From a virus: a DNA stretch of 35,503 nt. A model generated the notes under the pieces. That model was not told the DNA's origin and ran no database searches. It was given only the letters and a program-made list of their open reading frames with translations. The DNA is taken from positions 1 through 35,503 of the IMG/VR virus record IMGVR_UViG_3300025133_000340. One strand, given 5' to 3'. Both the position numbers and the translations under genes were made by a program. Positions 1-12,543 of the stretch are shown in pieces. Positions within the stretch are counted from its first letter, which is position 1; every line of letters begins with the position of its first letter.

Positions 1-172
1 CCAAGGCGTACCGTCCGCAGCCTTTCGGCTCGCGGTCTGGCATCGTCGGCCACTTGACGAAACATCGTCGGTCTGGACCATTGTTGCCAGTGACTTTCAC
101 AATAATACCAATACCATACAGCTTCGGGTTTGCTACGGCTGGTCTCATTCGTACCAAGTCACCGACTTGCAC
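1..172 (-). CDS. MQVGDLV-family small protein, partial (C-terminus outside window)
   Basis: GTG start at 172, read as MQVGDLVRMRPAV; 57 codons are visible and the frame runs off the window edge. It carries the family pattern: GDLV at residues 4-7, a GIGIIVKV strand, then a VKW strand. The first 14 nt overlap the end of the gene at 159..344, the arrangement repeated through the array. An SH3-like barrel is inferred from the strand pattern only; function unknown. Confidence 0.8.
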   Translation of the reverse strand, partial: MQVGDLVRMRPAVANPKLYGIGIIVKVTGNNGPDRRCFVKWPTMPDREPKGCGRYAL

Positions 173-344
173 TGATAACCTCGTAATCATTGGCATTTCT
201 CCACCCGAGCACGTCCAATGTCGTAAACCATAGTTTCGACCCATCACCTTTCAGCGAACGGTCGGATACAGCAATAACCAACTTTGGCAGCAAGGTCGAC
301 TTGTGCTTGGCGTTCTTATGCATAACCAAATCACCGACATTCAT
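159..344 (-). CDS. MNVGDLV-family small protein
   Basis: 61 residues starting MNVGDLVMHKNAK and ending DYEVISASR. The ATG at 344 is chosen because it matches the family start; longer in-frame extension upstream has no family similarity. It overlaps the next gene (GTG at 172) by 14 nt: the last codons (I-S-A-S-R-stop) share bases with that gene's start. Its own start lies inside the end of 331..504. Function unknown. Confidence 0.85.
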   Translation of the reverse strand: MNVGDLVMHKNAKHKSTLLPKLVIAVSDRSLKGDGSKLWFTTLDVLGWRNANDYEVISASR

Positions 345-504
345 TGATAATCTCGCAGCCTGACTGAACCATCCAGCGAATCTCGCCGGTCTGGTCGATG
401 GCTTGCACGGTGTCGCCATGGATATTGATATACAACACAACAGCAATAGATACGGGAGGCGGGAGCTTTAGGGGATTATACTTAATCAAATCACCGACTT
501 GCAT
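331..504 (-). CDS. MQVGDLI-family small protein
   Basis: 57 residues, MQVGDLIKYNPLK to CEIINECR. It has the family's GDLI start, a VSIAVVLYI strand and an IRWMV strand in place of the usual V-x-W. Overlaps 14 nt with both neighbours (331..344 downstream, 491..504 upstream), so it is probably translated by coupling rather than from its own ribosome binding site. Function unknown. Confidence 0.85.
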   Translation of the reverse strand: MQVGDLIKYNPLKLPPPVSIAVVLYINIHGDTVQAIDQTGEIRWMVQSGCEIINECR

Positions 505-697
505 AGTTGATAACCTCCAAAACTGTACGTTCGGGTTTTGTAACTTCTCCGTCGGTCCATTGGACGTGGCACCTAATGCCAACACATTCGACGATTACGC
601 CAACTTGGCCCACGGGTTTACCCCAATATCCGCGTTCGGCAACTGCCAAGCCATCGAGCCTCACTAGGTCACCAATGCGTGGCTTTCGCCAACTCAT
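491..697 (-). CDS. RIGDLV-family small protein
   Basis: 68 residues from MSWRKPRIGDLVRLDG to LEVINYASR. The ATG at 697 forms an ATGA overlap with the stop of 694..834, which supports this start over the one 9 nt upstream. Contains the family core: GDLV, VGVIVE strand, HVQW strand, LEV near the end. It has five extra residues before the GDLV motif. Function unknown. Confidence 0.85.
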   Translation of the reverse strand: MSWRKPRIGDLVRLDGLAVAERGYWGKPVGQVGVIVECVGIRCHVQWTDGEVTKPERTVLEVINYASR

Positions 698-834
698 TCG
701 CGCCACCGAAGGTGCTTTGGCTTTTGATGCTTCGGCTTACGACGACGACCCTTGCGAAGGTCGTCGGAACGCTTGTGATGGGGCCCGGCCTTGCCAGCGT
801 GCATCACTCGTGCGTCAATCGTTGTGCGTTTCAT
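694..834 (-). CDS. Very basic 46-residue protein, leaderless
   Basis: MKRTTIDARVMHAGKAGPHH followed by a Lys/Arg-rich tail (residues 21-46), no known domain. The ATG at 834 lies exactly 6 nt after the -10 TATGGT (841..846), so the message should begin at or next to the start codon. First gene of the operon that continues into the small-protein array. Positive charge suggests nucleic-acid contact, but that is inference only. Confidence 0.6.
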   Translation of the reverse strand: MKRTTIDARVMHAGKAGPHHKRSDDLRKGRRRKPKHQKPKHLRWRE

Positions 835-840
835 ATCTAA

Positions 841-868
841 ACCATAAGAACGGGCTTTAAGGAGTAAA
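841..868 (-). promoter_or_regulatory. Promoter, TTTACT-N16-TATGGT
   Basis: -35 TTTACT at 863..868, 16-nt spacer, -10 TATGGT at 841..846, with GTTCT directly before the -10. Drives the leaderless gene at 834 and the array genes after it. Confidence 0.8.
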
Positions 869-871
869 TCA

Positions 872-1102
872 TCATTTCTGATATTTCCATGAATCAGCGA
901 TTTCTTGCCAGTCGACGTTAGCCAAACTATCTCCGTCGGGAGTTGTTTTGCCCCACACGTATCCACAAAAGTTTGCAAACTGTGTGGCCTCGGTCATCTT
1001 TAGCGATGACATAAGACCGTAGGTGGTTTCATCGTTGCCAAGCCAGTGATTTACATTCCACGTTGCGCGGTTTGTCCACCCATTATAATCTTCTTTGTCC
1101 AT
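872..1102 (-). CDS. Conserved phage protein (TWNVNHWLGND type)
   Basis: 76 residues, MDKEDYNGWTNRATWNVNHW then LGNDE. The W-x-N-x-x-T-W-N-V-x-x-W-L-x-N-D-E pattern is one I know from small uncharacterised phage and plasmid proteins; no biochemical role is known to me. The ATG at 1102 directly follows a GTG at 1105; the GTG is exactly 6 nt from the -10 (1112..1117), so translation may begin there instead, adding one residue. Confidence 0.75.
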   Translation of the reverse strand: MDKEDYNGWTNRATWNVNHWLGNDETTYGLMSSLKMTEATQFANFCGYVWGKTTPDGDSLANVDWQEIADSWKYQK

Positions 1103-1111
1103 CACGCTGCA

Positions 1112-1139
1112 ACTATAATCACGAATCCTCGTTGGTAAA
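1112..1139 (-). promoter_or_regulatory. Promoter, TTTACC-N16-TATAGT
   Basis: -35 TTTACC at 1134..1139, -10 TATAGT at 1112..1117, spacer 16 nt. It lies in the 3' end of the upstream gene (1119..1307). The start codon GTG at 1105 sits 6 nt after the -10. Confidence 0.65.
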
Positions 1140-1307
1140 GGCTGAAGGTACATTTTTGTGAAAACCGATCGGCTGCTTGGCGTCCGGTGTATTGCGTACA
1201 GCCATGACGACGGCGGCCTTGTGCGCCTGCTTAATCGTTTCAAACGTCAAGCAGGCCTGTTCAAGACCGGCTGCACAAGAATACAAGATGTTGATTAGAC
1301 TCTTCAT
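1119..1307 (-). CDS. Hypothetical 62-residue protein
   Basis: MKSLINILYSCAAGLEQACL to SAFTNEDS. ATG at 1307 immediately follows the TAA of the VWA gene (TAAATG), so it is probably co-translated with it. The first ~20 residues are moderately hydrophobic with two Cys; no recognised domain. Downstream of the MoxR/VWA pair in the same transcription unit, which is the only hint to its role. Confidence 0.6.
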   Translation of the reverse strand: MKSLINILYSCAAGLEQACLTFETIKQAHKAAVVMAVRNTPDAKQPIGFHKNVPSAFTNEDS

Positions 1308-2540
1308 TTACTTATCCACGATGACGATTCGTTCATTAGTCTGAAAATAAGGGTTACTGCCATTCCGACTATCGGTCATCCACATACGTGGACACTTGCT
1401 AGACTTGGGCTTTGGAGCACACATATCGGTCAAACAAATGTGACCGTCATACTTGCCCTTATTGACAAAGTCAGTCGGCGGATTAAAGTCGGTTCCGCCC
1501 CACATCACACGCTCTTTCTTGCGCTTCTCGCCTTTCTTCCAAACGTAAACCTTATCCTCAGCAACCTTTGTGTCAAAGGGAATCACGGTAAACGTGGCAA
1601 TCTCAGATAGCTTGTTAAGCTCAGAGTAAAATGCTGCCAGCATCTCATCCGAGACAGAGCCAGACTGGTCAATGCTGATTGCGATATTAGCAACGCGCTC
1701 GACCTTGCGACCGGGATGAATGTAAGCGTAACGCTTGTTCAGTCGTCGGGGAGTGCTACGCTTATTGGACCGTTGGGAGCACTTGACGAACCATCGAAGC
1801 ACCTTGCGCCAATCGACTTTCGTCGATAGCTTATCGATGATTTCCTTGCGGACAGAAGAGGATACAGTGCCCCAACTATTAGACTTTGCAGCCTCATTAA
1901 CGGCATCTTTCATCGCCTCCTTCAGACGTTCCTTCGCGATTTCTTTGGTAGCCTCATCACAAGATTCGCCACCCCAATCAGCATGACTGTCAAACTGACC
2001 GGCATTATCAGGGTCAAAACCCTGGCCGCCGCCTTCACCTTCGCCGCCTCCATTCTGGTCGTCGTCGGCCTTTTGCTTCAACTGCTCATAATACCATTCG
2101 CCAGTTTTGTTGGCCGGAAGACCCTCAAATGGACCCTCGTCAGGAAAACAGCACATTTCCGGCAGCTTATCCTTGCCAATCAAACAGTTGATTGAAAGGT
2201 CCGTTGCGATATTCCACAACTTGAAAAGCTGCATCTTATCTTTTGGCACATTACCGTTGTTAGTAAAAACCCCAGCAAGCTCATCAGGCAGTCGACCAGT
2301 AACATGCTCGAAAATCAGATGATAAAACTCATGAATGAGGACACCAGACCTTTGAGCGTCAGTCAGACCTTCAAAGAAGTCTGGATTATACATCATCTCG
2401 AAATATCCGGTGTCGGGATTCACACGCACACCAGCAGTCGGGATGCCCTTAGACTCCTTCTTCTCGATACGACGAGAAAGCGCAGCAAAGAAAGGCTCGC
2501 GCTGTAGGAGTCGAAAGATATGGTCGTTTAGAATAAACAT
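1308..2540 (-). CDS. DUF2201-like metallopeptidase/VWA-domain protein
   Basis: 410 residues. N-terminal half carries HEFYH at 70-74 (HExxH zinc-binding signature) followed by E78 and H79. A Gly/Glu/Asp-rich linker spans about 155-195. The C-terminal half is a VWA-like domain with MIDAS residues DQSGS at 291-295, GGTDF near 348-352 and LTDM near 370. Families with this layout usually pair with a MoxR-type ATPase, and such a gene lies directly upstream (2741..3808). Likely role: substrate-binding or adaptor half of an AAA+ remodelling machine, acting in the cytosol. Start ATG at 2540 has a strong GGAGG site and its own promoter (2564..2591). Whether HExxH is catalytic is unknown. Confidence 0.85.
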   Translation of the reverse strand: MFILNDHIFRLLQREPFFAALSRRIEKKESKGIPTAGVRVNPDTGYFEMMYNPDFFEGLTDAQRSGVLIHEFYHLIFEHVTGRLPDELAGVFTNNGNVPKDKMQLFKLWNIATDLSINCLIGKDKLPEMCCFPDEGPFEGLPANKTGEWYYEQLKQKADDDQNGGGEGEGGGQGFDPDNAGQFDSHADWGGESCDEATKEIAKERLKEAMKDAVNEAAKSNSWGTVSSSVRKEIIDKLSTKVDWRKVLRWFVKCSQRSNKRSTPRRLNKRYAYIHPGRKVERVANIAISIDQSGSVSDEMLAAFYSELNKLSEIATFTVIPFDTKVAEDKVYVWKKGEKRKKERVMWGGTDFNPPTDFVNKGKYDGHICLTDMCAPKPKSSKCPRMWMTDSRNGSNPYFQTNERIVIVDK

Positions 2541-2563
2541 GAAGACCTCCGTCTTACGTTATA

Positions 2564-2591
2564 ACTATAGGAACGGTAACAAAGCAGTAAA
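2564..2591 (-). promoter_or_regulatory. Promoter, TTTACT-N16-TATAGT
   Basis: -35 TTTACT at 2586..2591, -10 TATAGT at 2564..2569, GTTCC before the -10. Leader of about 20 nt contains GGAGG before the ATG at 2540. The -35 overlaps the U-rich tail of the structured element just upstream. Confidence 0.85.
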
Positions 2592-2728
2592 GAAAAATGA
2601 TGACAAGGGGGCTGTTTGCTCGCAGTGCAGCCTTGCTATCTAGTTTTTTGATTAGTGGCGCTATCTTAACGCGCCCCCGCCGAAACTAGCAAAGTGGCGG
2701 ATTTATTAATAAACTCCCTTGTCATCGC
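2590..2728 (-). ncRNA. Candidate structured RNA between the MoxR and VWA genes
   Basis: Closing stem of 11 perfect base pairs: GATGACAAGGG at 2599..2609 against its complement at 2716..2726. Inside it: a hairpin GGCTG (2610..2614)/CAGCC (2628..2632); a stem CTAGTTT (2640..2646)/AAACTAG (2683..2689), extended by TTG/CAA outside a 4-nt bulge; within that a GGCGC (2657..2661)/GCGCC (2671..2675) hairpin. CCGCC (2677..2681) and GGCGG (2696..2700) could form an alternative or pseudoknot pairing. On the minus strand the closing stem is followed by ATTTTTCTTT, like an intrinsic terminator. No open frame. Not recognised as tmRNA, a riboswitch or another known class. Confidence 0.5.
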
Positions 2729-2740
2729 CTCACAAAACTC

Positions 2741-3808
2741 CTAGGAATCCTTGCCTGTAAGCATTTGAACCATGCGCGCCGAGACCTTTGTTCCGTCCGT
2801 TGCAGTGGCCTTATGGAGGCCAATCACGTTGGCGTTGTCACCCTTGCCGAGCACAGTCCACAACTTCATTGCAGCTTCCGAGGGCAGCGTCACAAAGTAA
2901 TCTGCCAAGTTCTGAACCTGATTATCAGCTAGCTCAGAGTCAAACGTCTCACTGGCTTCCATTTTTTCAATCAGGGCACAGTGCTCATTGATTCCGAAAT
3001 CGGAAGTCTTGGCGACCTGTCCATCATCCAGAATCATCTCAATGGTCACTTGGCGCTCATAGTTCTGAGCAAAATCGTTGAATGCGACAGCAGCCTCCAT
3101 CCCGACGAAAGCAGCGGACAAGTGATAAACGCCAGCGTCACTCTTGGAATCTGGCGTAAGAAAGCCAGCGCTAACCAAGCAATCATTCAAGCGCTTCCAA
3201 GAACGACGGGACGGATAAACCTTGTTGGGTTCAAAGTCCTCGCCATGCTCAAGATGCGAGCGATTTTGATTGATAAAGTCCCAAATGAGACCATCGACAT
3301 TATCCTTACCCCAATCAAGCCAATCCTCAACGGTAGGCTCGACATCGAACACGGTCCAGCGGTCAAGCTCGGCAGGGTCCATCTCACCAACCTGATACTG
3401 TGAACCATGCTCGCCGCCATTAACAGCAGCAATGATAACGGTATCGGGATGAATGGGCTTGCCAAACAACTTGCGTGAATCCGTAAGCTCGAAGAGACCC
3501 TGGCGGACCTCATTTACGGCGCGGTCGACCTCATCGAAGAAGAGGACCACTGGCCTATCACAAGCCTCCTGAAACCAATCAGGAGGACAGAAAGAAGTGA
3601 TATCGCCGTCAGTTTTGGGAAGGCCAATCAGATCGCCCTCGGTCATCTGAGATGCGCGGCGCTCGACGACGGGCATATCGAGATCTACAGCAATCTGATA
3701 TACGACCTCGGACTTGCCAACGCCATGGCGACCACGAAGCAGCACGGGCTTGCGTACAGCAATAACATGCGGTGCGACGTTTCGGAATGTTTTGAAATCA
3801 ACAGCCAT
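2741..3808 (-). CDS. MoxR-type AAA+ ATPase
   Basis: 355 residues. Walker A G-x4-GKS at 26-33 (G26, K32, S33), Walker B FFDE with D92 and E93, and the MoxR-like TEGDLIG segment at 56-62. ATP-driven remodelling enzyme; members usually work with a VWA-domain partner, which here is the next gene downstream (1308..2540). Start ATG at 3808 has an AGGAG-type site. Its promoter is 3850..3877. Targets are unknown; in bacteria such pairs insert metals or mature protein complexes. Assignment to the MoxR branch is from motif context. Confidence 0.9.
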   Translation of the reverse strand: MAVDFKTFRNVAPHVIAVRKPVLLRGRHGVGKSEVVYQIAVDLDMPVVERRASQMTEGDLIGLPKTDGDITSFCPPDWFQEACDRPVVLFFDEVDRAVNEVRQGLFELTDSRKLFGKPIHPDTVIIAAVNGGEHGSQYQVGEMDPAELDRWTVFDVEPTVEDWLDWGKDNVDGLIWDFINQNRSHLEHGEDFEPNKVYPSRRSWKRLNDCLVSAGFLTPDSKSDAGVYHLSAAFVGMEAAVAFNDFAQNYERQVTIEMILDDGQVAKTSDFGINEHCALIEKMEASETFDSELADNQVQNLADYFVTLPSEAAMKLWTVLGKGDNANVIGLHKATATDGTKVSARMVQMLTGKDS

Positions 3809-3849
3809 TTTACTCTCCTATAATAAGTAGTGGCTCGTCTTACACTTAA

Positions 3850-3877
3850 AAGATAAGAACGGTTGAATAGTAGTAAA
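3850..3877 (-). promoter_or_regulatory. Promoter, TTTACT-N16-TATCTT
   Basis: -35 TTTACT at 3872..3877, -10 TATCTT at 3850..3855, GTTCT before the -10. Serves the MoxR-type ATPase gene; the leader includes its ribosome binding site. Confidence 0.7.
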
Positions 3878-3884
3878 GAACTTT

Positions 3885-3968
3885 TTAGACCGGGCGAGTC
3901 AAAATCGCGTGGCCTAGGCTAACGCCAGTAAAGATAGCGTAACAAACAGTCAAGGTAACAAAATCCAT
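3885..3968 (-). CDS. 27-residue membrane micropeptide
   Basis: MDFVTLTVCYAIFTGVSLGH then AILTRPV and stop. AGGAG is well spaced before the ATG at 3968. Residues 2-23 are hydrophobic enough for one membrane span. It sits alone between tRNA-Leu and the MoxR promoter. Function unknown; the strong ribosome binding site and clean stop are the main support. Confidence 0.55.
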   Translation of the reverse strand: MDFVTLTVCYAIFTGVSLGHAILTRPV

Positions 3969-4002
3969 TATAAACTCCTATAGTTCATGGATTAAAAGTA
4001 AG

Positions 4003-4088
4003 TGGTAGCATCGGAGGGACTCGAACCCTCAATCCCAAAGGGCGACGGATTTTAAGTCCGTTGCGTATACCAGTTCCGCCACGATGCC
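4003..4088 (-). tRNA. tRNA-Leu (anticodon UAA)
   Basis: Complete cloverleaf of 86 nt with encoded CCA. Anticodon loop CTTAAAA gives UAA, reading UUA. Long variable arm typical of tRNA-Leu, T-loop TTCGAGT, 7-bp acceptor with a G-U first pair. Confidence 0.95.
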
Positions 4089-4099
4089 TCAACACCCAA

Positions 4100-4127
4100 A
4101 CTATAAGAACCAGTTTAGGCAAGTAAA
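4100..4127 (-). promoter_or_regulatory. Promoter for tRNA-Leu, TTTACT-N16-TATAGT
   Basis: -35 TTTACT at 4122..4127, -10 TATAGT at 4100..4105, GTTCT before the -10. The tRNA begins 11 nt after the -10. Confidence 0.8.
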
Positions 4128-4131
4128 GCTA

Positions 4132-4299
4132 TTAATCAGTGGCCCATTCGTATCGAATGATGCGACTGCTGCCACAAGCCACGCAGTTGGCGTCACAAGC
4201 AGGACGGGAGGAGCGTGGCTTTCTGTAGTATTTACAGCCACATGAGCCACAGTAGTAGTTGTGGGGCTTCTCTTTCTTCTTAGGGGGTGGTGGCCACAT
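4132..4299 (-). CDS. Small Cys-rich, zinc-ribbon-like protein
   Basis: 55 residues, MWPPPPKKKEKPHNYYCGSC to YEWATD. Cysteines at CGSCGC and at CDANCVAC form a probable zinc site; the N-terminus is proline- and lysine-rich. ATG at 4299 lies just after the stop of 4301..4963 with a GAGGAT ribosome binding site. Role unknown; a zinc ribbon with a basic surface could bind nucleic acid. Confidence 0.7.
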   Translation of the reverse strand: MWPPPPKKKEKPHNYYCGSCGCKYYRKPRSSRPACDANCVACGSSRIIRYEWATD

Positions 4300-4300
4300 T

Positions 4301-4963
4301 CTAAATCCTCGCTTTCTTGAGCCATCGGACTTCCGTCTCGATGGTCTCGGCAGTCCCAACAGGGAGCACAATCACAGGAATGGCACCCTTTGCAGCCCCG
4401 GCAACCTTGTCGGGATAATCGATAATCATGACCATCTTGTTCATAAAGCACTTCTTTACCGGGTGTGCAGTCTGGCGAATCTTCGCCATCGTTCCTACAG
4501 GAAAAGTAGGAACCGAGTTCATGTTGTCAAGCACTTTTGCGACATACTTGTTTTCGACCATGGCGCGGTACTGCTTTTCGGTAGGAATGTGGCCATCGTC
4601 GTTCAGAATACGACCAGCCAAGTCTGCAAAATATGGCGGATTATTCAAATAATAACGCGCAGCAATGCACATTTTGTCGCGCATTTCTTGAGAAAAGCTA
4701 TCATTCCAAGACTTTCGTGCAGCCTGCACAGCAGGGTCACGATTCTTCTCGATGCGCTGAACAATAGATTCTTGTTTGGCAGTCAAACTTCCGTAACGAT
4801 TCACGCTATCCTTGACGGAGGCGAGGAAACTCTTTTCCCAATCAGAAAGACCAGCGCTGCTAGCAAGAATCTTGTTAATACGAGTGATAAGTTCAGGATT
4901 CGCTTTTTCTCGGCGTTGTCGCATAATAGTCTCTCGTCGAGGTGCACCAGAGTTCCAACTCAT
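4301..4963 (-). CDS. Hypothetical 220-residue protein
   Basis: MSWNSGAPRRETIMRQRREK, then helical stretches with heptad-like spacing up to about residue 110, and a C-terminal half ending VRWLKKARI. No signal peptide, membrane span or recognised motif. ATG at 4963 has a GGAGAG site and a promoter at 4993..5020. Co-transcribed with the small zinc-ribbon gene. I do not recognise the family. Confidence 0.8.
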   Translation of the reverse strand: MSWNSGAPRRETIMRQRREKANPELITRINKILASSAGLSDWEKSFLASVKDSVNRYGSLTAKQESIVQRIEKNRDPAVQAARKSWNDSFSQEMRDKMCIAARYYLNNPPYFADLAGRILNDDGHIPTEKQYRAMVENKYVAKVLDNMNSVPTFPVGTMAKIRQTAHPVKKCFMNKMVMIIDYPDKVAGAAKGAIPVIVLPVGTAETIETEVRWLKKARI

Positions 4964-4992
4964 TTTGCTCTCCGTATCTGGGGTACGTCTAA

Positions 4993-5020
4993 ACTATAAG
5001 AACAGTTTTCTGAGGGTCAA
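4993..5020 (-). promoter_or_regulatory. Promoter, TTGACC-N16-TATAGT
   Basis: -35 TTGACC at 5015..5020, -10 TATAGT at 4993..4998, GTTCT before the -10; leader with ribosome binding site before the ATG at 4963. Confidence 0.8.
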
Positions 5021-5023
5021 GGC

Positions 5024-5428
5024 TTAAAACGCAATATGTCGACTAATGAAAATATCATTTTGAAAGCCCCAACCTTTTTCTGTAAGGTCGTCGTTATCTT
5101 CGCCAATGCGGATAAACTTGAAGTATTCGCCCCACTGGTCGTCTGTGCCGTCTGGCCGTTTTGGAGGCTCAGGCTCTCCGTACTCAGAGAGATCATCGGC
5201 CTCCAGTGCATCGATGAAACCATTGAGAACATCGATTTCTGGATAACCCTCATACCACTTGATATGACTCCAGTGCATAAACCAGTCACCGGGTTGGGCG
5301 TAACCAGAAGAGAAATCGTCTGCGTCGTTGCACAACTCCAGCACTTTCGGATACTTTGCTTGCAAAGCCATGAAGGCTGACGCTGCTTCGGGTGCGATTG
5401 CCAATACTACTTGTGAACGGTAACCCAT
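5024..5428 (-). CDS. MGYRSQV-type conserved phage protein
   Basis: 134 residues, MGYRSQVVLAIAPEAASAFM. The MGYRS-V-ALAI beginning followed by an acidic body (W-Y-E-G-Y/P-E-I-D-V region around 70) is a pattern seen in uncharacterised phage and bacterial proteins; no function is known to me. ATG at 5428 overlaps the TAA of the upstream gene (TAATG), so it is coupled to 5428..5658. Confidence 0.75.
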   Translation of the reverse strand: MGYRSQVVLAIAPEAASAFMALQAKYPKVLELCNDADDFSSGYAQPGDWFMHWSHIKWYEGYPEIDVLNGFIDALEADDLSEYGEPEPPKRPDGTDDQWGEYFKFIRIGEDNDDLTEKGWGFQNDIFISRHIAF

Positions 5429-5939: not shown

Positions 5940-5945
5940 ATCCAA

Positions 5946-6553: not shown

Positions 6554-6571
6554 TAGAACCTCCATGGAAAA

Positions 6572-6599: not shown

Positions 6600-6600
6600 A

Positions 6601-7398: not shown

Positions 7399-7429
7399 TT
7401 CAACCCTCCGTTGTGTCGTTTACGCTATA

Positions 7430-7457
7430 AGTATAGTTACGCAGCTTGAAGAGTCAA
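7430..7457 (-). promoter_or_regulatory. Promoter, TTGACT-N16-TATACT
   Basis: -35 TTGACT at 7452..7457, -10 TATACT at 7430..7435. Lies across the 3' end of 7437..7916 and drives the zinc-knuckle gene. Confidence 0.75.
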
Positions 7458-7916
7458 GAGCGCGTCCAACATATCAACAGTTCTTGGGAGTCCATCGCCC
7501 ACTGGATAAACCCAGCACTTTGAGCCCCACGGACTATAAATGTTTGTATTCTCTTCACAAAAAACCTCTAAAACGTGGTTAAGTTCAACGTCTTCCAAGA
7601 TATATTCTGGGGTTTCGTCGGGTTCCTCTTCGTGAATGTTATAAGCCACCCCAGCCTCGACCAACAAAACCATCATATGTTCCGTCAGTTCTTCGCCGGA
7701 GAGCGGCTCGTCGGAAAAAGAGTTCTCCGTAAAATACTCATAGCACGATGGATCATCGATGTGAGCCTGCATCTCAACATAACCATTTTTAAGTTCTATG
7801 AGGTGCATTTCAACTCCATTGTCATACCAGCCAAGATATCTGTGAGTAAAGCAGTTAATCACTTTCTCGTAGATATCCTTGCCATACTTGGGCTTAAAGA
7901 TCCAAGATGATTGCAT
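7437..7916 (-). CDS. Hypothetical acidic protein
   Basis: 159 residues, MQSSWIFKPKYGKDIYEKVI to LLTLQAA. Strongly acidic middle (about 80-125). No recognised domain, signal or span. ATG at 7916 follows the lipoprotein gene with an AGGT-type site, so the two are probably co-transcribed. An internal promoter-like site in the lipoprotein gene (8057..8084) could also serve it. Confidence 0.75.
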   Translation of the reverse strand: MQSSWIFKPKYGKDIYEKVINCFTHRYLGWYDNGVEMHLIELKNGYVEMQAHIDDPSCYEYFTENSFSDEPLSGEELTEHMMVLLVEAGVAYNIHEEEPDETPEYILEDVELNHVLEVFCEENTNIYSPWGSKCWVYPVGDGLPRTVDMLDALLTLQAA

Positions 7917-7928
7917 GTTTTTTACCTG

Positions 7929-8099
7929 CTATTTTGTGTAGGTTTTGGTGTGAGTGCATCGCACCTCACCAGTTGAGCCAATATGCTTGCATGTTTCTTG
8001 ATGATGCACGCGAGTCGGCTTAATGCCAACTGACGGCATTGGAACGTAGCAACCAGAAGATAAGAACGAAAATACAAGAGTAAAGATAATCTTTTTCAT
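7929..8099 (-). CDS. Small lipoprotein
   Basis: 56 residues. MKKIIFTLVFSFLSSGC is a lipoprotein signal with Cys17 as the lipidation site (LSSGC; Ser at -3 is less common). The mature part of 40 residues is basic with two more cysteines (C37, C48). ATG at 8099 lies two bases after the stop of 8101..8394. Probably exported and membrane-anchored; a role in lysis or exclusion is possible but not shown. Confidence 0.7.
   Translation of the reverse strand: MKKIIFTLVFSFLSSGCYVPMPSVGIKPTRVHHQETCKHIGSTGEVRCTHTKTYTK
8057..8084 (-). promoter_or_regulatory. Promoter-like site inside the lipoprotein gene, TTTACT-N16-TATCTT
   Basis: -35 TTTACT at 8079..8084, -10 TATCTT at 8057..8062 with GTTCT before the -10: a full match to the window's promoter family, but it lies 15 nt inside the signal-peptide coding region. 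It could drive 7437..7916 or be coincidental. Confidence 0.4.
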
Positions 8100-8100
8100 T

Positions 8101-8394
8101 TTATTCAACCGCCTTCAAGTAGGGGATTCCATTCGGCAAATCTCCGCTGACGATGCCGCCATGCTTCGCGCACACAACTGTTATAACATTAGTCGGCACC
8201 CAGCCATAAACCGTGCCGGTATAATCTTCCTTATCACTCGCATAAGGAGCTAACAACTCTTCGTAATAACTAGGAAAGCCGACTTCTACGGCATCATAAC
8301 TTTGAGCGTTGCTTGACCGTGGCGAACAATAGTTGTGTTCGCTAGCCTGCACACTCATCTCGAAGCCATCGGCACAGATGATTTTTTCATTCAT
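8101..8394 (-). CDS. Conserved phage protein (ICADGFEMSVQA type)
   Basis: 97 residues, MNEKIICADGFEMSVQASEH, with YTGTVYGWVP and GGIVSGDLPNGIPYL segments. I recognise this pattern from uncharacterised proteins of several phages; no function is known to me. ATG at 8394, just downstream of tRNA-Ile, presumably transcribed from the same promoter (8503..8530). Confidence 0.75.
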   Translation of the reverse strand: MNEKIICADGFEMSVQASEHNYCSPRSSNAQSYDAVEVGFPSYYEELLAPYASDKEDYTGTVYGWVPTNVITVVCAKHGGIVSGDLPNGIPYLKAVE

Positions 8395-8407
8395 TTATTT
8401 CTCCGTC

Positions 8408-8483
8408 TGGTCGGCCCGGTGGGACTTGAACCCACGACTCCCACCTTATAAGGATGACGCTCTAACCTCTGAGCTACGGGCCA
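8408..8483 (-). tRNA. tRNA-Ile (anticodon UAU)
   Basis: 76-nt cloverleaf with encoded CCA. Anticodon stem TCATC/GGTGG with loop CTTATAA gives UAU, which reads AUA directly. Acceptor closes with a U-G first pair; D-arm GCTCAGAGGTTAGAGC and T-loop TTCAAGT are normal. Confidence 0.9.
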
Positions 8484-8502
8484 GTAATCTGTTTACACCG
8501 CA

Positions 8503-8530
8503 ATCATAAGAACCAAAGGGTTCTAGTCAA
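8503..8530 (-). promoter_or_regulatory. Promoter for tRNA-Ile, TTGACT-N16-TATGAT
   Basis: -35 TTGACT at 8525..8530, -10 TATGAT at 8503..8508, GTTCT before the -10. The -35 overlaps the stop codon of 8527..8709. Confidence 0.8.
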
Positions 8531-8709
8531 GACTCAGAAACGAGAAGCAGCGTTTCTTCTCGTCGACTGTGTTCTTCGCCCTCAAGTATATATAATCTAA
8601 CAGGTTTTCCATTCCGCTCGCTTTCGATGACTTCAATAATCATCTTGGCCGGATAGATTTCTTTGTAGTTTGAATAAGCCGAAGGTATTACTAAGTCACC
8701 GACTTTCAT
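8527..8709 (-). CDS. MKVGDLV-family small protein
   Basis: 60 residues, MKVGDLVIPSAYSNYKEIYP to LLLVSES. Last gene of the two-gene operon that starts at 8918. ATG at 8709 overlaps the TAA of the upstream gene by one base. It lacks the usual V-x-W strand (VRLYIL instead). Function unknown. Confidence 0.8.
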   Translation of the reverse strand: MKVGDLVIPSAYSNYKEIYPAKMIIEVIESERNGKPVRLYILEGEEHSRREETLLLVSES

Positions 8710-8918
8710 TAGAGTACCACGATTGGGAGTTCGGCGACGTCTATTAAACTATACCAAGAGCCGCCAAGTTGTCCGTCAATAAGATCGGAGCCCCACACAA
8801 CTCTCCATTGCAGCCCGGTGTTGTCAGCAGACGGTCTGGTTTCGAGCACATGGCCGATGCCATTGTCGATAGGATCGTCCTTATGCGGAACATATTGTAC
8901 CAAATCGCCTATCTTCAT
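8709..8918 (-). CDS. MKIGDLV-family small protein, leaderless
   Basis: 69 residues, MKIGDLVQYVPHKDDPIDNG, with GIGHVLE and WRVVWGSD strands as in the family. ATG at 8918 is exactly 6 nt after the -10 TATGTT (8925..8930), so a leaderless message is predicted; no ribosome binding site can exist between them. Function unknown. Confidence 0.85.
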   Translation of the reverse strand: MKIGDLVQYVPHKDDPIDNGIGHVLETRPSADNTGLQWRVVWGSDLIDGQLGGSWYSLIDVAELPIVVL

Positions 8919-8924
8919 GTATCA

Positions 8925-8952
8925 AACATAAGTACAGATTATGAGGAGTAAA
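8925..8952 (-). promoter_or_regulatory. Promoter, TTTACT-N16-TATGTT
   Basis: -35 TTTACT at 8947..8952, -10 TATGTT at 8925..8930. The -35 overlaps the last codons of 8939..9136. Confidence 0.75.
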
Positions 8953-9136
8953 GGACTTCGATGTGTTTTCCGTTAACGTCTATCGGAGGTCCAGAGGATA
9001 TGTTCCACTGAACGAAATACAGTGGTCGATATTCCTTGTCGGGCGGGCCTCGGTCGATCTCAACCAAGAGGCCAATATCGCCTTCGTCGAAGGTATAGGT
9101 ATCTTCCGTCGCAATCACAATATCATTTACTTTCAC
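8939..9136 (-). CDS. MKVNDIV-family small protein
   Basis: 65 residues, GTG start at 9136. Family core modified to KVNDIV, then DIGLLVEI and YFVQWN strands. Its first 14 nt overlap the end of 9123..9302. Terminal sequence IEVLYSS differs from the usual VISESR because the next gene does not overlap it. Function unknown. Confidence 0.8.
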   Translation of the reverse strand: MKVNDIVIATEDTYTFDEGDIGLLVEIDRGPPDKEYRPLYFVQWNISSGPPIDVNGKHIEVLYSS

Positions 9137-9302
9137 TGATAACCTTCAACTCTATAACGTCGTACCACATGCGATCGTCGTCGAACCACTGTACCTCGAA
9201 GTAGACTACGCCGTCGTCATTCTCGTGGGAATCCAGTATTACACCTGTGCCCATTAGTTCTGGTGTGTGGTTGTTACGAACTACTAAATCACCGACTTTC
9301 AT
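9123..9302 (-). CDS. MKVGDLV-family small protein
   Basis: 59 residues read directly from the sequence: MKVGDLVVRNNHTPELMGTG, then VILDSHEN, VYFEVQWF and ending LKVISESK. ATG at 9302. The C-terminus S-E-S-K-stop shares 14 nt with the GTG start of 8939..9136. ATG overlaps the TAA of 9302..9502. Function unknown. Confidence 0.85.
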   Translation of the reverse strand: MKVGDLVVRNNHTPELMGTGVILDSHENDDGVVYFEVQWFDDDRMWYDVIELKVISESK

Positions 9303-9502
9303 TATGGATTTCCCATAATGTTTTCGTCATCGTCGATGAGGGGGCTCAACCTCAGTTCATGTTGAGGGTGTGTCTCTTGGTGGTCGCGGTCTGTGAACTG
9401 CACAGTCGCGTCGTCACCACCGACGAGGCGCGTCACTATCCCAGGCGTAGCACAGCCATCTCTAATATCATCAACATGCCAAACTAAATCACCGACTGTC
9501 AT
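9302..9502 (-). CDS. MTVGDLV-family small protein
   Basis: 66 residues, MTVGDLVWHVDDIRDGCATP with GIVTRLVGG and ATVQFTD strands (F in place of the family W). ATG at 9502 overlaps the TAA of the upstream gene by one base, so translation is probably coupled. Function unknown. Confidence 0.85.
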   Translation of the reverse strand: MTVGDLVWHVDDIRDGCATPGIVTRLVGGDDATVQFTDRDHQETHPQHELRLSPLIDDDENIMGNP

Positions 9503-9705
9503 TATAATACCTCGATTGCGTTTCTCGACAGATCGTGTTCATATCCAAACTGCGGAAATAAAACCCTGTGAATCCCAACGGGGCGCACCTTTATAACAAT
9601 GCCGAACTCACCTTTAATATAGTGGAGCATTTGTACGGCGGCGCCATCTTCAATATGCGACGAGCCGGGTTGGAATACGCATCGAACTAAGTCGCCTACT
9701 TTCAT
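9502..9705 (-). CDS. MKVGDLV-family small protein, leaderless
   Basis: 67 residues, MKVGDLVRCVFQPGSSHIED to NAIEVL, with FGIVIKV and HRVLFP strands. First gene of the 9705-8939 operon. ATG at 9705 is exactly 6 nt after the -10 TATGGT (9712..9717), so a leaderless start is predicted. Function unknown. Confidence 0.85.
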   Translation of the reverse strand: MKVGDLVRCVFQPGSSHIEDGAAVQMLHYIKGEFGIVIKVRPVGIHRVLFPQFGYEHDLSRNAIEVL

Positions 9706-9711
9706 GCAACA

Positions 9712-9739
9712 ACCATAAGAACCAAAAAATCAAAGTCTA
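9712..9739 (-). promoter_or_regulatory. Promoter, TAGACT-N16-TATGGT
   Basis: -35 TAGACT at 9734..9739, -10 TATGGT at 9712..9717, GTTCT before the -10. Overlaps the stop codon of 9737..9958. Confidence 0.75.
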
Positions 9740-9958
9740 GGCTTCTTGGATTATTATTACCAAGCCTTCAACCAAAGCATCTTCGCCAAGGTCACAGTCG
9801 TAGGGAATACTCGGCCACTTTATCTTCCACGAGGGCATCATGCCATCTGGGTATTCCGCAAGTTCGCCCGGGACACCCACTTCATAGCCTGGACCAATAG
9901 CCACCACGAGACCTATTTCATCATCATGTGCATCTTGCACCAAATCACCCGGCTTCAT
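9737..9958 (-). CDS. MKPGDLV-family small protein
   Basis: 73 residues, MKPGDLVQDAHDDEIGLVVA to VIIIQEA, with WKIKWPS as the V-x-W strand. ATG at 9958; its first 14 nt encode the last residues (N-E-A-G-stop) of the upstream gene. Function unknown. Confidence 0.85.
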   Translation of the reverse strand: MKPGDLVQDAHDDEIGLVVAIGPGYEVGVPGELAEYPDGMMPSWKIKWPSIPYDCDLGEDALVEGLVIIIQEA

Positions 9959-10154
9959 TTAGAACCTCCAGCCAATCGTCGAGCATAATATCAGGCTGGC
10001 CGGACAGATGCTCGGGCGAGACCCATTCGACCCGCCAGCGGTGGAACCGTGTCTTGTGCTGCCGGTATACCACACCAACAGGGTAGTATTCTTCGCCACC
10101 ATCTTCGTCTGGTCCCCATGCGTCAATAGATTTTACTAAATCACCGATTTTCAT
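9945..10154 (-). CDS. MKIGDLV-family small protein
   Basis: 69 residues, MKIGDLVKSIDAWGPDEDGG to DWLEVLNEAG, with VGVVYRQ and WRVEWVS strands. ATG at 10154 overlaps the stop of 10154..10321 (TGATG), which fixes the start three codons inside the longest frame. 14-nt overlap with the next gene. Function unknown. Confidence 0.85.
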   Translation of the reverse strand: MKIGDLVKSIDAWGPDEDGGEEYYPVGVVYRQHKTRFHRWRVEWVSPEHLSGQPDIMLDDWLEVLNEAG

Positions 10155-10321
10155 CATCTGCAACCGGGGCAGCGGTTATCGATCCATCGCTCAATCACGT
10201 TGCTGATAGCTTCCATGACGGCGCCGAAGTCCTCCTTGTCGTCGAGGCAGCGGGCCCTACATTTTTCCGCCAGTACCTCGCGAATGGCATTCTCAAGATT
10301 AAAGTTTTTATTTAGTTTCAT
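10154..10321 (-). CDS. Small non-family protein inside the array
   Basis: 55 residues read directly: MKLNKNFNLENAIREVLAEK, then CRARCLDDKEDFG and a C-terminus IDNRCPGCR. Helical, with four cysteines (C-x3-C and C-x2-C) that could bind zinc. It does not carry GDLV yet overlaps its upstream neighbour by the same 14 nt. Function unknown. Confidence 0.65.
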   Translation of the reverse strand: MKLNKNFNLENAIREVLAEKCRARCLDDKEDFGAVMEAISNVIERWIDNRCPGCR

Positions 10322-10499
10322 TTACGACCTCCAAAAAATCGGGGCGGGCAAATAGTGTTGGCCAGGGGCAATCGGCCCACAGAATGTAAGGCCGCCAACC
10401 GCCGGTCTGGCAGCGAACAACTAGGCCGAGTTCATCTGGTGTTCGACCATAGGTTTCGCATACTCTCGGCGCGATTCTTACCAAATCACCTATCTTCAT
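10308..10499 (-). CDS. MKIGDLV-family small protein, leaderless
   Basis: 63 residues, MKIGDLVRIAPRVCETYGRT to FLEVVNETK, with LGLVVRC and YILWAD strands. ATG at 10499 is exactly 6 nt after the -10 TATGGT (10506..10511), so it is predicted leaderless; the longer frame would start inside the promoter. Function unknown. Confidence 0.85.
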   Translation of the reverse strand: MKIGDLVRIAPRVCETYGRTPDELGLVVRCQTGGWRPYILWADCPWPTLFARPDFLEVVNETK

Positions 10500-10505
10500 A
10501 TCACA

Positions 10506-10533
10506 ACCATAGGAACGAATCAATCTTCGTCAA
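10506..10533 (-). promoter_or_regulatory. Promoter, TTGACG-N16-TATGGT
   Basis: -35 TTGACG at 10528..10533, -10 TATGGT at 10506..10511, GTTCC before the -10. Lies over the 3' end of the MazG-like gene. Confidence 0.75.
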
Positions 10534-10822
10534 CACTATCCAAAATAATTCTGCTAGAAAATCCGCCGCGCTGCTCTCGCTTGTCCTCCGCGACACTCTC
10601 TACGCCGTCAATGTCTAGGCCGTGAAGATTGCAGAGGGATAAAAAAACCTCAAAGATATCAGCAGCTTCTTCATAGCACGGGCTGTCTATAAACTCCTGC
10701 ATCTCCTCTTTCATCTTCTCAAAGAGCCACATTTCGTATTCATTTCGGGAACTTACGTGATAGCTACACGACCTTCCGCTTTCCTCAATAATGCGAGGGA
10801 TTAAATCTCTAACTAGCTTCAC
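10520..10822 (-). CDS. MazG/PRA-PH-like nucleotide pyrophosphohydrolase
   Basis: 100 residues, GTG start at 10822. The K-L-V-R-D-L-I-P-R-I-I beginning and the E-x3-E-x9-E-E-A-A-D-I-x-E-V pattern (residues about 38-60; E-E-x-x-D supply the metal site) are typical of MazG/phosphoribosyl-ATP pyrophosphohydrolase-like house-cleaning enzymes, which hydrolyse NTPs to NMP and pyrophosphate. Substrate cannot be told. It sits inside the GDLV array and overlaps its upstream neighbour by 14 nt like the array genes. Confidence 0.8.
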   Translation of the reverse strand: MKLVRDLIPRIIEESGRSCSYHVSSRNEYEMWLFEKMKEEMQEFIDSPCYEEAADIFEVFLSLCNLHGLDIDGVESVAEDKREQRGGFSSRIILDSVDED

Positions 10823-11018
10823 TTACCAACTCCAACTCACCTTCATGCCACCATCCGATTTCGTGCCGGGTTGACCAATGGATTTCGTAATATACAATCC
10901 CGTAATCATCTTCGTAAGCATCTAAAACAACACCATATTTATACTTCTTTGTGTCGGCGCCGAAACTTCTGAGGATCCCTGGTCGCAAGCTAACAACATC
11001 ACTTACTTGTATTGACAT
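10809..11018 (-). CDS. GDLV-family small protein (QVSDVV variant)
   Basis: 69 residues, MSIQVSDVVSLRPGILRSFG to LELVSEAS. The GDLV motif is changed to SDVV, but the YGVVLDA and YEIHWS strands and the terminal LELVSE match. Its last codons share 14 nt with the GTG start of the MazG-like gene. Function unknown. Confidence 0.8.
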   Translation of the reverse strand: MSIQVSDVVSLRPGILRSFGADTKKYKYGVVLDAYEDDYGIVYYEIHWSTRHEIGWWHEGELELVSEAS

Positions 11019-11019
11019 A

Positions 11020-11181
11020 TCAAGGTTCCGCTGGTTCGCTAAGATTTTTCAACTCATAGGCCAGCGACCAGCCCGGTGCGGCCGGCCACGCTACCTTGAC
11101 CATTTTTTTTCCGCAATCTATTATCAGCACTATCCCAAGGTCAGCGGTGGGAATATGTCTAACTAAATCACCGACTTTCAC
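11020..11181 (-). CDS. MKVGDLV-family small protein
   Basis: 53 residues read directly, GTG start at 11181: MKVGDLVRHIPTADLGIVLI, then VKVAWPA and a short tail ending SEPAEP. Stop lies one base before the next ATG. Its 5' end overlaps 11168..11359 by 14 nt. One of the shortest members. Function unknown. Confidence 0.8.
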   Translation of the reverse strand: MKVGDLVRHIPTADLGIVLIIDCGKKMVKVAWPAAPGWSLAYELKNLSEPAEP

Positions 11182-11359
11182 TTATGACCTCGATAAACTC
11201 TTCTGACATGGGTCCGTAACCGCTGTAAAGGCCTTTGGTTACAGGCAAAAGTTGCCAGTAGGCGCGTCCGTTACCTCGGTAGGAATCAGGGATAGCCTCA
11301 GTGATAATATAGTAACCAAACTTCGCTGGTAAAACTTGTACTAGGTCACCGACTTTCAT
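11168..11359 (-). CDS. MKVGDLV-family small protein
   Basis: 63 residues, MKVGDLVQVLPAKFGYYIIT to FIEVISESR. ATG at 11359. 14-nt overlaps at both ends. The V-x-W strand reads YWQLLP. The C-terminal EVISESR is the commonest form of the shared ending. Function unknown. Confidence 0.85.
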   Translation of the reverse strand: MKVGDLVQVLPAKFGYYIITEAIPDSYRGNGRAYWQLLPVTKGLYSGYGPMSEEFIEVISESR

Positions 11360-11546
11360 TGACTACCTCTAAAATAGACAGTTGGTAGTTGCCAGCCGCC
11401 GTGTATTTGCAAGCCCATTCGATATAGGCAGCGCCGGTCTCAGGCTGTGAAGGGTGCGGTGAGCTAGGCAGTTCGATTATTTTCAGCACAATACCATGGG
11501 GGCTATTGTTGTGTCGCCTGAACTTTACCAAATCACCTACTTGCAT
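11346..11546 (-). CDS. MQVGDLV-family small protein
   Basis: 66 residues, MQVGDLVKFRRHNNSPHGIV to LEVVNESR, with AYIEWAC strand. ATG at 11546; overlaps neighbours by 14 nt on each side. Function unknown. Confidence 0.85.
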   Translation of the reverse strand: MQVGDLVKFRRHNNSPHGIVLKIIELPSSPHPSQPETGAAYIEWACKYTAAGNYQLSILEVVNESR

Positions 11547-11712
11547 TTACAATCTCCAAATCCTCAATGGCAATCCAATCGGTAATATCACCGTATTGTA
11601 CGCAGACGTGATACATCTCTTTGTCGAATCGGGGGTGGCTGGCGACATTGACTACTAGGCCAAGACCAGCATAAAGTTCATCGTGGCATCTCACCAAATC
11701 ACCGACTTTCAC
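11533..11712 (-). CDS. MKVGDLV-family small protein
   Basis: 59 residues read directly, GTG start at 11712: MKVGDLVRCHDELYAGLGLV, then VCVQYGD and ending LEIVNASR. 14-nt overlaps on both sides. Function unknown. Confidence 0.85.
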   Translation of the reverse strand: MKVGDLVRCHDELYAGLGLVVNVASHPRFDKEMYHVCVQYGDITDWIAIEDLEIVNASR

Positions 11713-11872
11713 TAAGAGCCTCCGTCATCCACTTGCCAGCCCACATCGGATGCGCCAGCCAATCTTCAACGCCGCGAACCAAGGCGCCTCCCTTATCATT
11801 AAGTCTTATAACAACCCCAACAAAGGGTGTTATGCCAGGGCACGAAACGCGAACCAAATCACCGATCTTCAC
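11699..11872 (-). CDS. MKIGDLV-family small protein
   Basis: 57 residues read directly, GTG start at 11872: MKIGDLVRVSCPGITPFVGV, then GGALVRGVEDW and ending TEALSESR. 14-nt overlaps on both sides. Function unknown. Confidence 0.85.
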   Translation of the reverse strand: MKIGDLVRVSCPGITPFVGVVIRLNDKGGALVRGVEDWLAHPMWAGKWMTEALSESR

Positions 11873-12050
11873 TTATAACCTCTAAGTCATTGAGATTGAA
11901 CGTGTATTCGGCATCAAAAACTACCTTAACAAAAGTGAAGCCGACCACATCGGGCGCGTATACCTTCGTGACTACACCAATCATGTCTTCGTATAACCTA
12001 CCCTTTCGGGTCTTTCGCATGGATAACCTTACCAAATCACCGACTTTCAT
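11859..12050 (-). CDS. MKVGDLV-family small protein
   Basis: 63 residues, MKVGDLVRLSMRKTRKGRLY to LEVISEDR, with IGVVTKVY and VKVVFD strands. ATG at 12050 by family match; it overlaps the stop of 12047..12271 as ATGA. Function unknown. Confidence 0.85.
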   Translation of the reverse strand: MKVGDLVRLSMRKTRKGRLYEDMIGVVTKVYAPDVVGFTFVKVVFDAEYTFNLNDLEVISEDR

Positions 12051-12271
12051 GCTCTGCTCATTATGTGAAACATATCTTGTGAGGTGTTGAAATCTTGGGA
12101 GCGCCACGCATCGGTATACGTTTTGCCGCTACTCCAAGTCACTTCAATCATAAGCGAGTCGTCCATACCGCCGCCATAGTCCCAATAAGTAGCTATCACG
12201 ACGCCGACATCTCCGTCAGAACATCCAATAATGTCACCTATTCTTGGGTATCTGGAGTTAACATGCTTCAT
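12047..12271 (-). CDS. RIGDII-family small protein
   Basis: 74 residues, MKHVNSRYPRIGDIIGCSDG to HIMSRA. The GDII motif sits nine residues further in than usual; GVVIATY and IEVTWSS follow as in the family. ATG at 12271 overlaps the stop of the upstream gene. Function unknown. Confidence 0.8.
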   Translation of the reverse strand: MKHVNSRYPRIGDIIGCSDGDVGVVIATYWDYGGGMDDSLMIEVTWSSGKTYTDAWRSQDFNTSQDMFHIMSRA

Positions 12272-12537
12272 GCTCTGCTTATAACCTTGAATAAACCAAT
12301 ACCACTCTTGCTTTTAACTTGAACGTAAGAAATGAGTTGATCGGCACCATAAATGCGATTACCGCTATCACCATACATGGCTGGGCGAGGGCCCGAGCCA
12401 TTAGTGTTCCAATGAATTTTTATCATCTCGCACTGTTCGTCGTAAGCAACCACGTGCTTCATCGTACGAATTTCCAATACGATGCCGGTCTGCTTAGAGC
12501 CGGCAGTGTTATACCACACCAAATCACCAATCTTCAT
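12268..12537 (-). CDS. MKIGDLV-family small protein, leaderless, operon head
   Basis: 89 residues, MKIGDLVWYNTAGSKQTGIV to LFKVISRA; the longest typical member, with MIKIHWNTN strand. ATG at 12537 is exactly 6 nt after the -10 TATACT (12544..12549), so a leaderless message is predicted. Head of a run of nine genes continuing to the MazG-like gene. Function unknown. Confidence 0.85.
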   Translation of the reverse strand: MKIGDLVWYNTAGSKQTGIVLEIRTMKHVVAYDEQCEMIKIHWNTNGSGPRPAMYGDSGNRIYGADQLISYVQVKSKSGIGLFKVISRA

Positions 12538-12543
12538 AAATGA

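Follow-up and report, generated by a model that had tools for sequence, protein, structure and literature searches.

An array of small minus-strand genes in an uncultured phage probably represents an early array of interchangeable, coupled small-gene cassettes that are exchanged at a shared joint by phage recombination. The array was analysed in a 35,503-nucleotide stretch of viral DNA (IMG/VR record IMGVR_UViG_3300025133_000340), hereafter the window. Its genes belong to the GDLV family, an uncharacterised family of over a thousand members, and each cassette is predicted, on the basis of structural models, to encode an SH3-like barrel of 50–90 residues. Whole units swap in and out at the shared joint, a 14-nt start/stop overlap with its flanking signals. 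Literature searches yielded no description of such an array or of a 14-nt overlap family.

GDLV genes of the window

GDLV members occupy positions 1–697, 8527–12537 and 14059–14283, comprising 22 complete genes and one partial gene cut by the edge (1–172), all on the minus strand. The first-pass annotation had counted at least 26; the family stands, but that count is a slight overestimate if weak relatives such as 5428–5673 are left out. The start signature RTGMARRTHGGTGAYYTNGT, allowing at most one mismatch, has 18 matches in the window versus 0.00 expected in shuffles. One of these 18 matches falls within a polymerase gene. The genes of the array are as follows.

1–172, minus: GDLV unit truncated at the window edge, starting with GTG at 172
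159–344, minus: GDLV unit, 14-nt overlaps at 159–172 and 331–344
331–504, minus: GDLV unit, 14-nt overlaps at 331–344 and 491–504
491–697, minus: GDLV unit, head of sub-array 1–697, GGAGG in the joint
8527–8709, minus: GDLV unit, final gene ahead of tRNA-Ile; orthologs in L124 and L076, upstream neighbours differ
8709–8918, minus: GDLV unit, downstream joint a 1-nt TAATG; ortholog in L126, neighbours differ
8939–9136, minus: GDLV unit, 14-nt docking at 9123–9136
9123–9302, minus: GDLV unit, AlphaFold2 model a five-stranded SH3-like barrel, mean pLDDT 90.3
9302–9502, minus: GDLV unit, both joints 1-nt
9502–9705, minus: GDLV unit, sub-array head
9737–9958, minus: GDLV unit, 14-nt docking at 9945–9958; orthologs in L124 (86%) and L126 (79%), neighbours differ
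9945–10157, minus: GDLV unit
10154–10321, minus: 55-aa ORF outside the family, docked at a GDLV unit through the overlap ATGAAACTAAATAA
10308–10499, minus: GDLV unit, 14-nt joint at 10308–10321 into the non-family 55-aa ORF
10520–10822, minus: MazG-like gene, docked at a GDLV unit through the overlap GTGAAGCTAGTTAG
10809–11018, minus: GDLV unit
11020–11181, minus: GDLV unit, 14-nt docking at 11168–11181
11168–11359, minus: GDLV unit with an atypical middle; model likewise SH3-like, pLDDT 84.4
11346–11546, minus: GDLV unit; ortholog in L060 has another upstream neighbour
11533–11712, minus: GDLV unit, both joints 14-nt
11699–11872, minus: GDLV unit, both joints 14-nt
11859–12050, minus: GDLV unit; homologous stretch in L060 and L076 is this same unit, neighbours differ
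12047–12271, minus: divergent GDLV unit, 4-nt joints
12268–12537, minus: GDLV unit, first of the long sub-array
14059–14283, minus: solitary GDLV unit with the C-terminus LEVLS; the following GIY-YIG-like gene begins in a 4-nt TTGA overlap

Predicted fold

The proposal that these proteins are small SH3-like barrels was borne out by modelling, in which two divergent members adopted the same barrel. The five-stranded model of 9123–9302 gave Foldseek TM-scores of about 0.7 to KOW, PWWP, Tudor, PetP and R67 DHFR, with E-values of 0.03 or worse, and the model of 11168–11359 reached a Z-score of up to 7.9 to the Spt5 KOW domain, under the tool's caution level of 8. The predicted fold is one that GDLV units have in common with KOW domains of Spt5/NusG, Tudor, PWWP, PetP and type II DHFR, but without significant sequence membership in any of these groups. 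For a window protein, the best Pfam matches (DUF1918 and DUF2098) lay below the cut-off; some family members match phrog_1690 (5e-7) or phrog_9237 (1.4e-5), both without known function. Type II DHFR carries a VQIY motif. Identity with this enzyme, raised by the fold match, was rejected, as VQIY occurs in 0 of 1759 units.

The 14-nt start/stop overlap

Exactly twelve 14-nt overlaps are present in the window, with low coordinates 159, 331, 491, 9123, 9945, 10308, 10809, 11168, 11346, 11533, 11699 and 11859, in agreement with the number first reported; two of the twelve run onto genes of other families. The overlap at 10809–10822 (GTGAAGCTAGTTAG) opens a gene beginning MKLVRDLIP, which we take from this motif to be MazG/phosphoribosyl-ATP-pyrophosphohydrolase-like and which is docked likewise in L016, L060 and L085, and that at 10308–10321 (ATGAAACTAAATAA) opens the 55-aa non-family ORF. 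The remaining family junctions in the window are 4-nt (ATGA) or 1-nt (TAATG) overlaps.

Across 77 related phage loci, fetched via an unrelated gene or protein so that the junction was not used in selection, an exact 14-nt overlap joins 313 of 512 adjacent family pairs, compared with 6 of 98 overlapping non-family pairs. All of these relatives are metagenome assemblies; the phages that carry such arrays are large, uncultured and mostly marine. When bacterial genomes were scanned, only five contigs emerged, all metagenome-assembled. Searches of 50,697 phage records gave only chance matches of 17–19 nt to the junction DNA, none of them credible, and no match to four family proteins.

What the joint encodes

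DNA coding for the C-terminal strand, L-E-V-I-[SN]-E, also contains a Shine-Dalgarno site (GGAG/GAGG) together with the ATG or GTG of the next gene. Codon choice follows docking: in loci retrieved through an unrelated protein, the joint glutamate is GAG in 202 of 207 docked genes and 78 of 125 undocked ones, versus 975 of 2206 glutamate codons (44%) in gene bodies. An ESR-type tail terminates 233 of 280 docked genes but only 2 of 408 undocked genes, and is a by-product forced by the overlap. The first-pass annotation had read the two most conserved protein ends as one DNA in two frames; the overlap is confirmed, but conservation of the C-terminus is not mainly a protein feature, since the tail depends on docking and the strand doubles as ribosome-binding site and start.

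These figures bear on one alternative, an ordinary operon of overlapping small genes whose termini are conserved for protein function and whose overlap is incidental. In the predicted barrel, L-E-V-I forms the last β-strand, which gives it a structural role as well; however, the tail vanishes when nothing is docked and the strand's codons change with docking. As a full account the ordinary operon is refuted by the codon and tail statistics, and we give it practically no credence.

The anatomy of the joint instead suggests translational coupling through an embedded Shine-Dalgarno site and an overlap. The last β-strand of a cassette, in the codons TTG GAG GTx, also spells a Shine-Dalgarno sequence, with the next ATG or GTG 5–6 nt on, and the Gly-Asp codons of the next gene (GGT GAY) provide the TGA stop of the preceding one. 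The joint may therefore act as a universal port, at which any gene that starts there and offers an other-frame stop 14 nt in would be translated and coupled to its predecessor. Non-family genes do dock at the same port, with differing overlap sequences.

Promoters and terminators

Putative transcription signals were located at the heads of sub-arrays.

12544–12571, minus: sigma-70-like promoter TTGACT-N16-TATACT, array head
10506–10533, minus: sigma-70-like promoter TTGACG-N16-TATGGT, sub-array head
9712–9739, minus: promoter-like TAGACT-N16-TATGGT, sub-array head
8925–8952, minus: promoter-like TTTACT-N16-TATGTT, sub-array head

Sigma-70-like promoters were found at 17 of 31 short-gap sub-array heads versus 0.1 expected, and upstream of 2 of 281 docked genes versus 1.4 expected. 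Terminator-like sites in 8000–14400 numbered four, versus 5.8 in shuffles, with none at docked joints. A single inverted repeat was detected in 8500–12560, within a gene body, and none at the joints of the main array.

Exchange of whole units among relatives

Among orthologous units with 14-nt joints, the downstream neighbour differs in 141 of 166 pairs and the upstream neighbour in 148 of 175, the ortholog pairs in both counts being non-independent. Past the joint, identity drops to background within about 20 nt, and crossovers are located about −4 to +17 relative to the start codon. Of 899 alignment ends in internal units, 821 were no more than 30 nt from a joint, versus 39% expected, and about 9% fall within unit bodies. 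At one and the same joint, L136, L095 and L187 have no unit, whereas L137 and L138 each carry an inserted unit, and these two units differ. Unit boundaries in related genomes thus fall in the joint, as anticipated from the window alone, with whole units present in some alleles and absent from others. The units themselves are under purifying selection (median dN/dS 0.17).

The earlier suggestion that units duplicate, drop out and shuffle is supported for shuffling and for gain and loss, but not for recent duplication; the role it gave to 14-nt microhomology is likely. A copy at 65% identity or more was present within the same locus for 2 of 648 units, compared with 233 of 648 having such a relative in another contig; since within-genome copies are so rare, units come from other phages. 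Recent tandem duplication was accordingly rejected as the mode of array growth. The broader alternative, in which tandem duplication in place and divergence leave joints identical by descent while duplication and loss within genomes make arrays differ, is very unlikely. Homology of all units in fold and ends does require ancient duplications; against this account stand the same copy counts and the unrelated inserts of the empty and filled alleles.

A site-specific recombinase recognising the joint, in the way that integron integrases recognise attC, would fit a short conserved site with whole-cassette gain and replacement. However, no match to a tyrosine integrase (PF00589) or a resolvase was obtained in 13 records, all fragments, the main-array joints lack an inverted repeat, and the ribosome-binding site, start and stop account for the conserved positions. 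We regard this explanation as extremely unlikely.

The strongest competitor is illegitimate recombination followed by selection, the usual alternative account of phage mosaicism (PMC3233612, PMC3029335), in which breaks are random and homology-independent, survivors are those with both genes intact and coupled, and the joint is conserved for translation rather than recombination. The joint is clearly equipped for translation, and selecting intact coupled genes could give the same breakpoints without homology. Joints other than 14 nt also change neighbours (29 different, 16 the same, summed counts), so the region shuffles even without a 14-nt joint. On the other side, neighbour changes involving a 14-nt joint kept the 14-nt register in 141 pairs versus 22 mixed; random breaks should scatter the register more than these 141 of 163 changes indicate. 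In addition, the shared sequence and the crossover zone coincide, and 34% of random joint pairs have 12 or more consecutive identical nucleotides in common, versus 0.06% of body pairs. We consider the illegitimate route rather unlikely, and microhomology, beyond selection alone, likely drives the exchange.

Exchange is likely driven by phage recombination of the RecA type, acting where the joint is shared. A RecA family protein was found in 12 of 12 large relatives, and neither RecT nor ERF was detected in the large relatives examined. In the proposed mechanism, the array would be expressed early in this group of uncultured large phages, and the shared joint, some 30 nt long, would provide homology for a RecA/UvsX-type recombinase. 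Such a recombinase may swap, add or drop cassettes between co-infecting phages, with both frames kept by construction. The products may be early proteins that contact components of the host or of competing phages, each with its own surface, so that rapid swapping would alter the repertoire. More tentatively, the joint is possibly a coding-embedded recombination port, kept partly for the evolvability of the array, through which integrase-free cassette exchange trades early host-interaction proteins across species.

Relation to known systems

PeSL elements, each a promoter plus a stem-loop, are placed between genes. In T4-type phages (Arbiol 2010; Comeau 2014), such linkers are credited with modular shuffling of early accessory genes (PMC4503421), and the GDLV array resembles them in having a short linker repeated from one accessory early gene to another. 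In contrast to PeSL, the GDLV linker lies inside two overlapping coding sequences and holds a ribosome-binding site, start and stop. Nor does each linker carry an early promoter, which is confined to sub-array heads (2 of 281 docked genes), or a stem-loop terminator, for which the main array shows no excess.

The SAS of Cluster K mycobacteriophages, a repeated short GGGATAGGAGCCC directly upstream of the starts of many unrelated small genes (PMC3203893), is similar in being a short repeat beside many small-gene starts. The part of that description considered here includes neither a coding overlap nor a register rule, whereas the GDLV joint has both, and GGGATAGGAGCCC with up to two mismatches had 0 matches in the window. 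Integrons likewise present arrays of exchangeable single-gene units from a common pool, but in the GDLV array no integrase was found (PF00589 in 0 of 13 fragment records), there is no attC-like palindrome, and each unit supplies the ribosome-binding site of the next.

Homologous recombination at short conserved inter-gene sequences has been discussed for mosaic phages, and such sequences are missing at many or most mosaic boundaries (PMC3233612, PMC3029335). The GDLV array differs in that one sequence is common to hundreds of joints, and its breakpoints lie in sequence common to both partners, as in homology-directed boundary exchange.

Implications

Whether phage mosaicism originates from short boundary homology or from random breaks plus selection has been described as unclear (PMC3233612). 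Here, a single joint whose reading is known in both frames is repeated hundreds of times, with empty, filled and replaced alleles, which makes this question directly testable. The joint also constitutes a natural modular expression format, with the ribosome-binding site for a given gene located in the gene before it. If the proposed reading is true, these phages would exchange genes by general recombination, without an integrase, at a sequence that is at once a protein strand, a ribosome-binding site, a start and a stop codon.

Organization of the GDLV array

The 35,503-base window, an IMG/VR virus fragment, carries five tRNAs and genes that read as a DnaE-type polymerase, GroEL, ClpP, adenylosuccinate synthetase, IMP dehydrogenase and others, named from their translations, with search confirmation for the polymerase only. 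The GDLV family, whose small proteins begin M(K/Q)(V/I)GDLV, comprises 22 complete genes and one partial gene on the minus strand:

1-697, minus strand, GDLV cluster
8527-12537, minus strand, GDLV cluster
14059-14283, minus strand, isolated GDLV member

The first-pass annotation had reported twelve exact 14-nt overlaps between the end of one gene and the start of the next, and twelve such joints were indeed counted in the window. Two of them open into genes of other families, with differing overlap sequences.

A second small family (ICADGFEMSVQAS...) adjoins the array at window 8101-8394; in other phages (loci L063, L073 and L021) its genes are docked to GDLV units, that is, joined to them through a 14-nt overlap. 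In locus L036 the 14-nt joint also connects a 339-aa ORF starting VKVGEYDANGNGNSVLFRPDDGD to a GDLV unit; judged by eye, this long protein is possibly a single-stranded-DNA-binding protein. Longer GDLV relatives (115-127 aa, VGDLVxxPRRR ... WYPxEW), with an inserted middle and without the usual joint tail, possibly represent a single-copy, ancestral-type member:

L006, 12028-12411, longer GDLV relative
L088, 8460-8840, longer GDLV relative
L094, 5054-5413, longer GDLV relative
L115, 3086-3433, longer GDLV relative

Two otherwise different minus-strand proteins (window 12599-13339 and 13341-13580) share the N-terminus MKLLLESWR(K/S)(Y/H)L, which resembles the N-peptides that direct T4 internal proteins to the capsid. 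In L129, a close relative carries MKLLLENWRKYL.

Distribution and coding content of the joint

A pattern scan matched the junction in at least 120 stretches of viral contigs. The pattern is also present in five metagenome-assembled bacterial contigs (L201-L205), which probably come from phages, were placed in the bins of their hosts and might yield host clues. To avoid selection by junction pattern, 77 loci were fetched through a neighbouring MoxR-like protein; family members were present in 73, totalling 863 genes, with some loci derived from near-identical contigs. The overlap was exactly 14 nt in 313 of 512 adjacent family pairs, 4 nt being second commonest (n = 63), and in 6 of 98 overlapping non-family pairs from the same loci, delimited by a rough gene caller. 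Sixteen long contigs (162-293 kb) hold 5 to 32 family genes each. To judge from a median dN/dS of 0.17 (235 pairs), the units are real genes.

In position frequencies across 534 joints, numbered from the end of the upstream stop, G-G-A-G-G-T occupies -25 to -20, and the next gene's start codon falls at -14. The strand L-E-V, coded TTG GAG GTx, forms a Shine-Dalgarno site 5-6 nt ahead of the start codon; AAT-GAA or AGT-GAA (Asn/Ser-Glu) makes the next gene's ATG or GTG, and the upstream TGA stop sits within GGT-GAY, which encodes Gly-Asp in the next protein. The joint Glu is GAG in 202/207 docked and 78/125 undocked genes (gene-body Glu codons, 975/2206). This synonymous choice, which tracks docking, shows the Shine-Dalgarno coding to be under selection. 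The tail [SN][EA]x[RK] ends 233/280 docked versus 2/408 undocked genes; a protein-relevant Ser/Asn tail could be kept with other codons, and undocked genes drop it.

Exchange of whole units

Close relatives of the window, like all relatives compared, are metagenome contigs; they are collinear at ~81-86% DNA identity over 1.3-5.0 kb, and their array units stand in other orders beside other neighbours. No window unit with an ortholog has a GDLV neighbour common to both. Across all loci, with gene starts set by model and motif, the downstream neighbour differs in 141 of 166 and the upstream neighbour in 148 of 175 orthologous-unit pairs with 14-nt joints on both sides of the comparison, the pairs not being independent. 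Where neighbours differ, identity is ~80-97% as far as the stop and ~30% from ~12 nt beyond; on the other side it falls at -18. Site-by-site comparison with random joints, a baseline drawn from all loci that calibrates inner positions only roughly, maps the ancestry switch to about -4 to +17 around the start codon, a stretch that corresponds to the overlap with a few additional bases. Of 899 alignment ends that fall within internal units, 821 are close to a joint (expected 39%).

One site between the same two flanking units is empty in L136, L095 and L187, holds one additional unit in L137 and an unrelated one in L138, all in exact 14-nt register. A systematic search found one further insertion and several replacements. 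Identical arrangements often recur across sample numbers (L124 and L125, L144 and L199), which argues against assembly error. In the MoxR-fetched set, only 2/648 units resemble another unit of their own locus at ≥65% DNA identity, versus 233/648 with such a relative in another contig; on these identities, the units are drawn from a pool common to phages, rather than copied in place.

Mechanism of exchange

Random joints have ~30 nt of related sequence in common (74% identity from -12 to +20), and 34% of random joint pairs contain exact runs of ≥12 nt. A RecA-family protein is encoded in 12/12 large relatives tested, RecT or ERF proteins in none of the 12, and tyrosine integrase and serine resolvase families in none of 13 records. 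From this combination we favour general recombination at the shared joint, which would swap units. Random breaks followed by selection for intact coupled genes, a less probable but still viable rival, would accommodate the shuffling also seen at joints other than 14 nt (29 different, 16 same neighbours), but this explanation is weakened by retention of the register after neighbour change (141 both 14 nt, 22 mixed).

Promoter-like motifs and predicted protein fold

TTGAC-N(16-20)-TAnnnT precedes 17 of 31 sub-array heads, scored where there is a short gap to the preceding family gene (expected 0.1), and 2/281 docked genes (expected 1.4). Window sites are:

Before 12537, promoter-like site
Before 10499, promoter-like site
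Before 9705, weaker promoter-like site
Before 8918, weaker promoter-like site

This pattern suggests transcription by host polymerase, presumably early. A promoter-like TTKACT-N16-TAT(A/C/G)NT motif, its second hexamer often preceded by GTTCT, recurs at window 868-8530 (minus strand), preceding many non-array genes too.

Two divergent GDLV members gave SH3-like models (pLDDT 90.3 and 84.4), with KOW, Tudor, PWWP and PetP-type barrels as the closest solved structures, at modest scores; the predicted fold cannot provide a reading of protein function.

Significance

Linker-mediated shuffling (PeSL) has been reported for T4-type phages (cited in PMC4503421), and the GDLV array probably works similarly, although PeSL is defined by a promoter and a stem-loop, and the GDLV joint has neither. 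Since the mechanism of mosaicism is called unclear at review level (PMC3233612), the GDLV array is useful in this respect.
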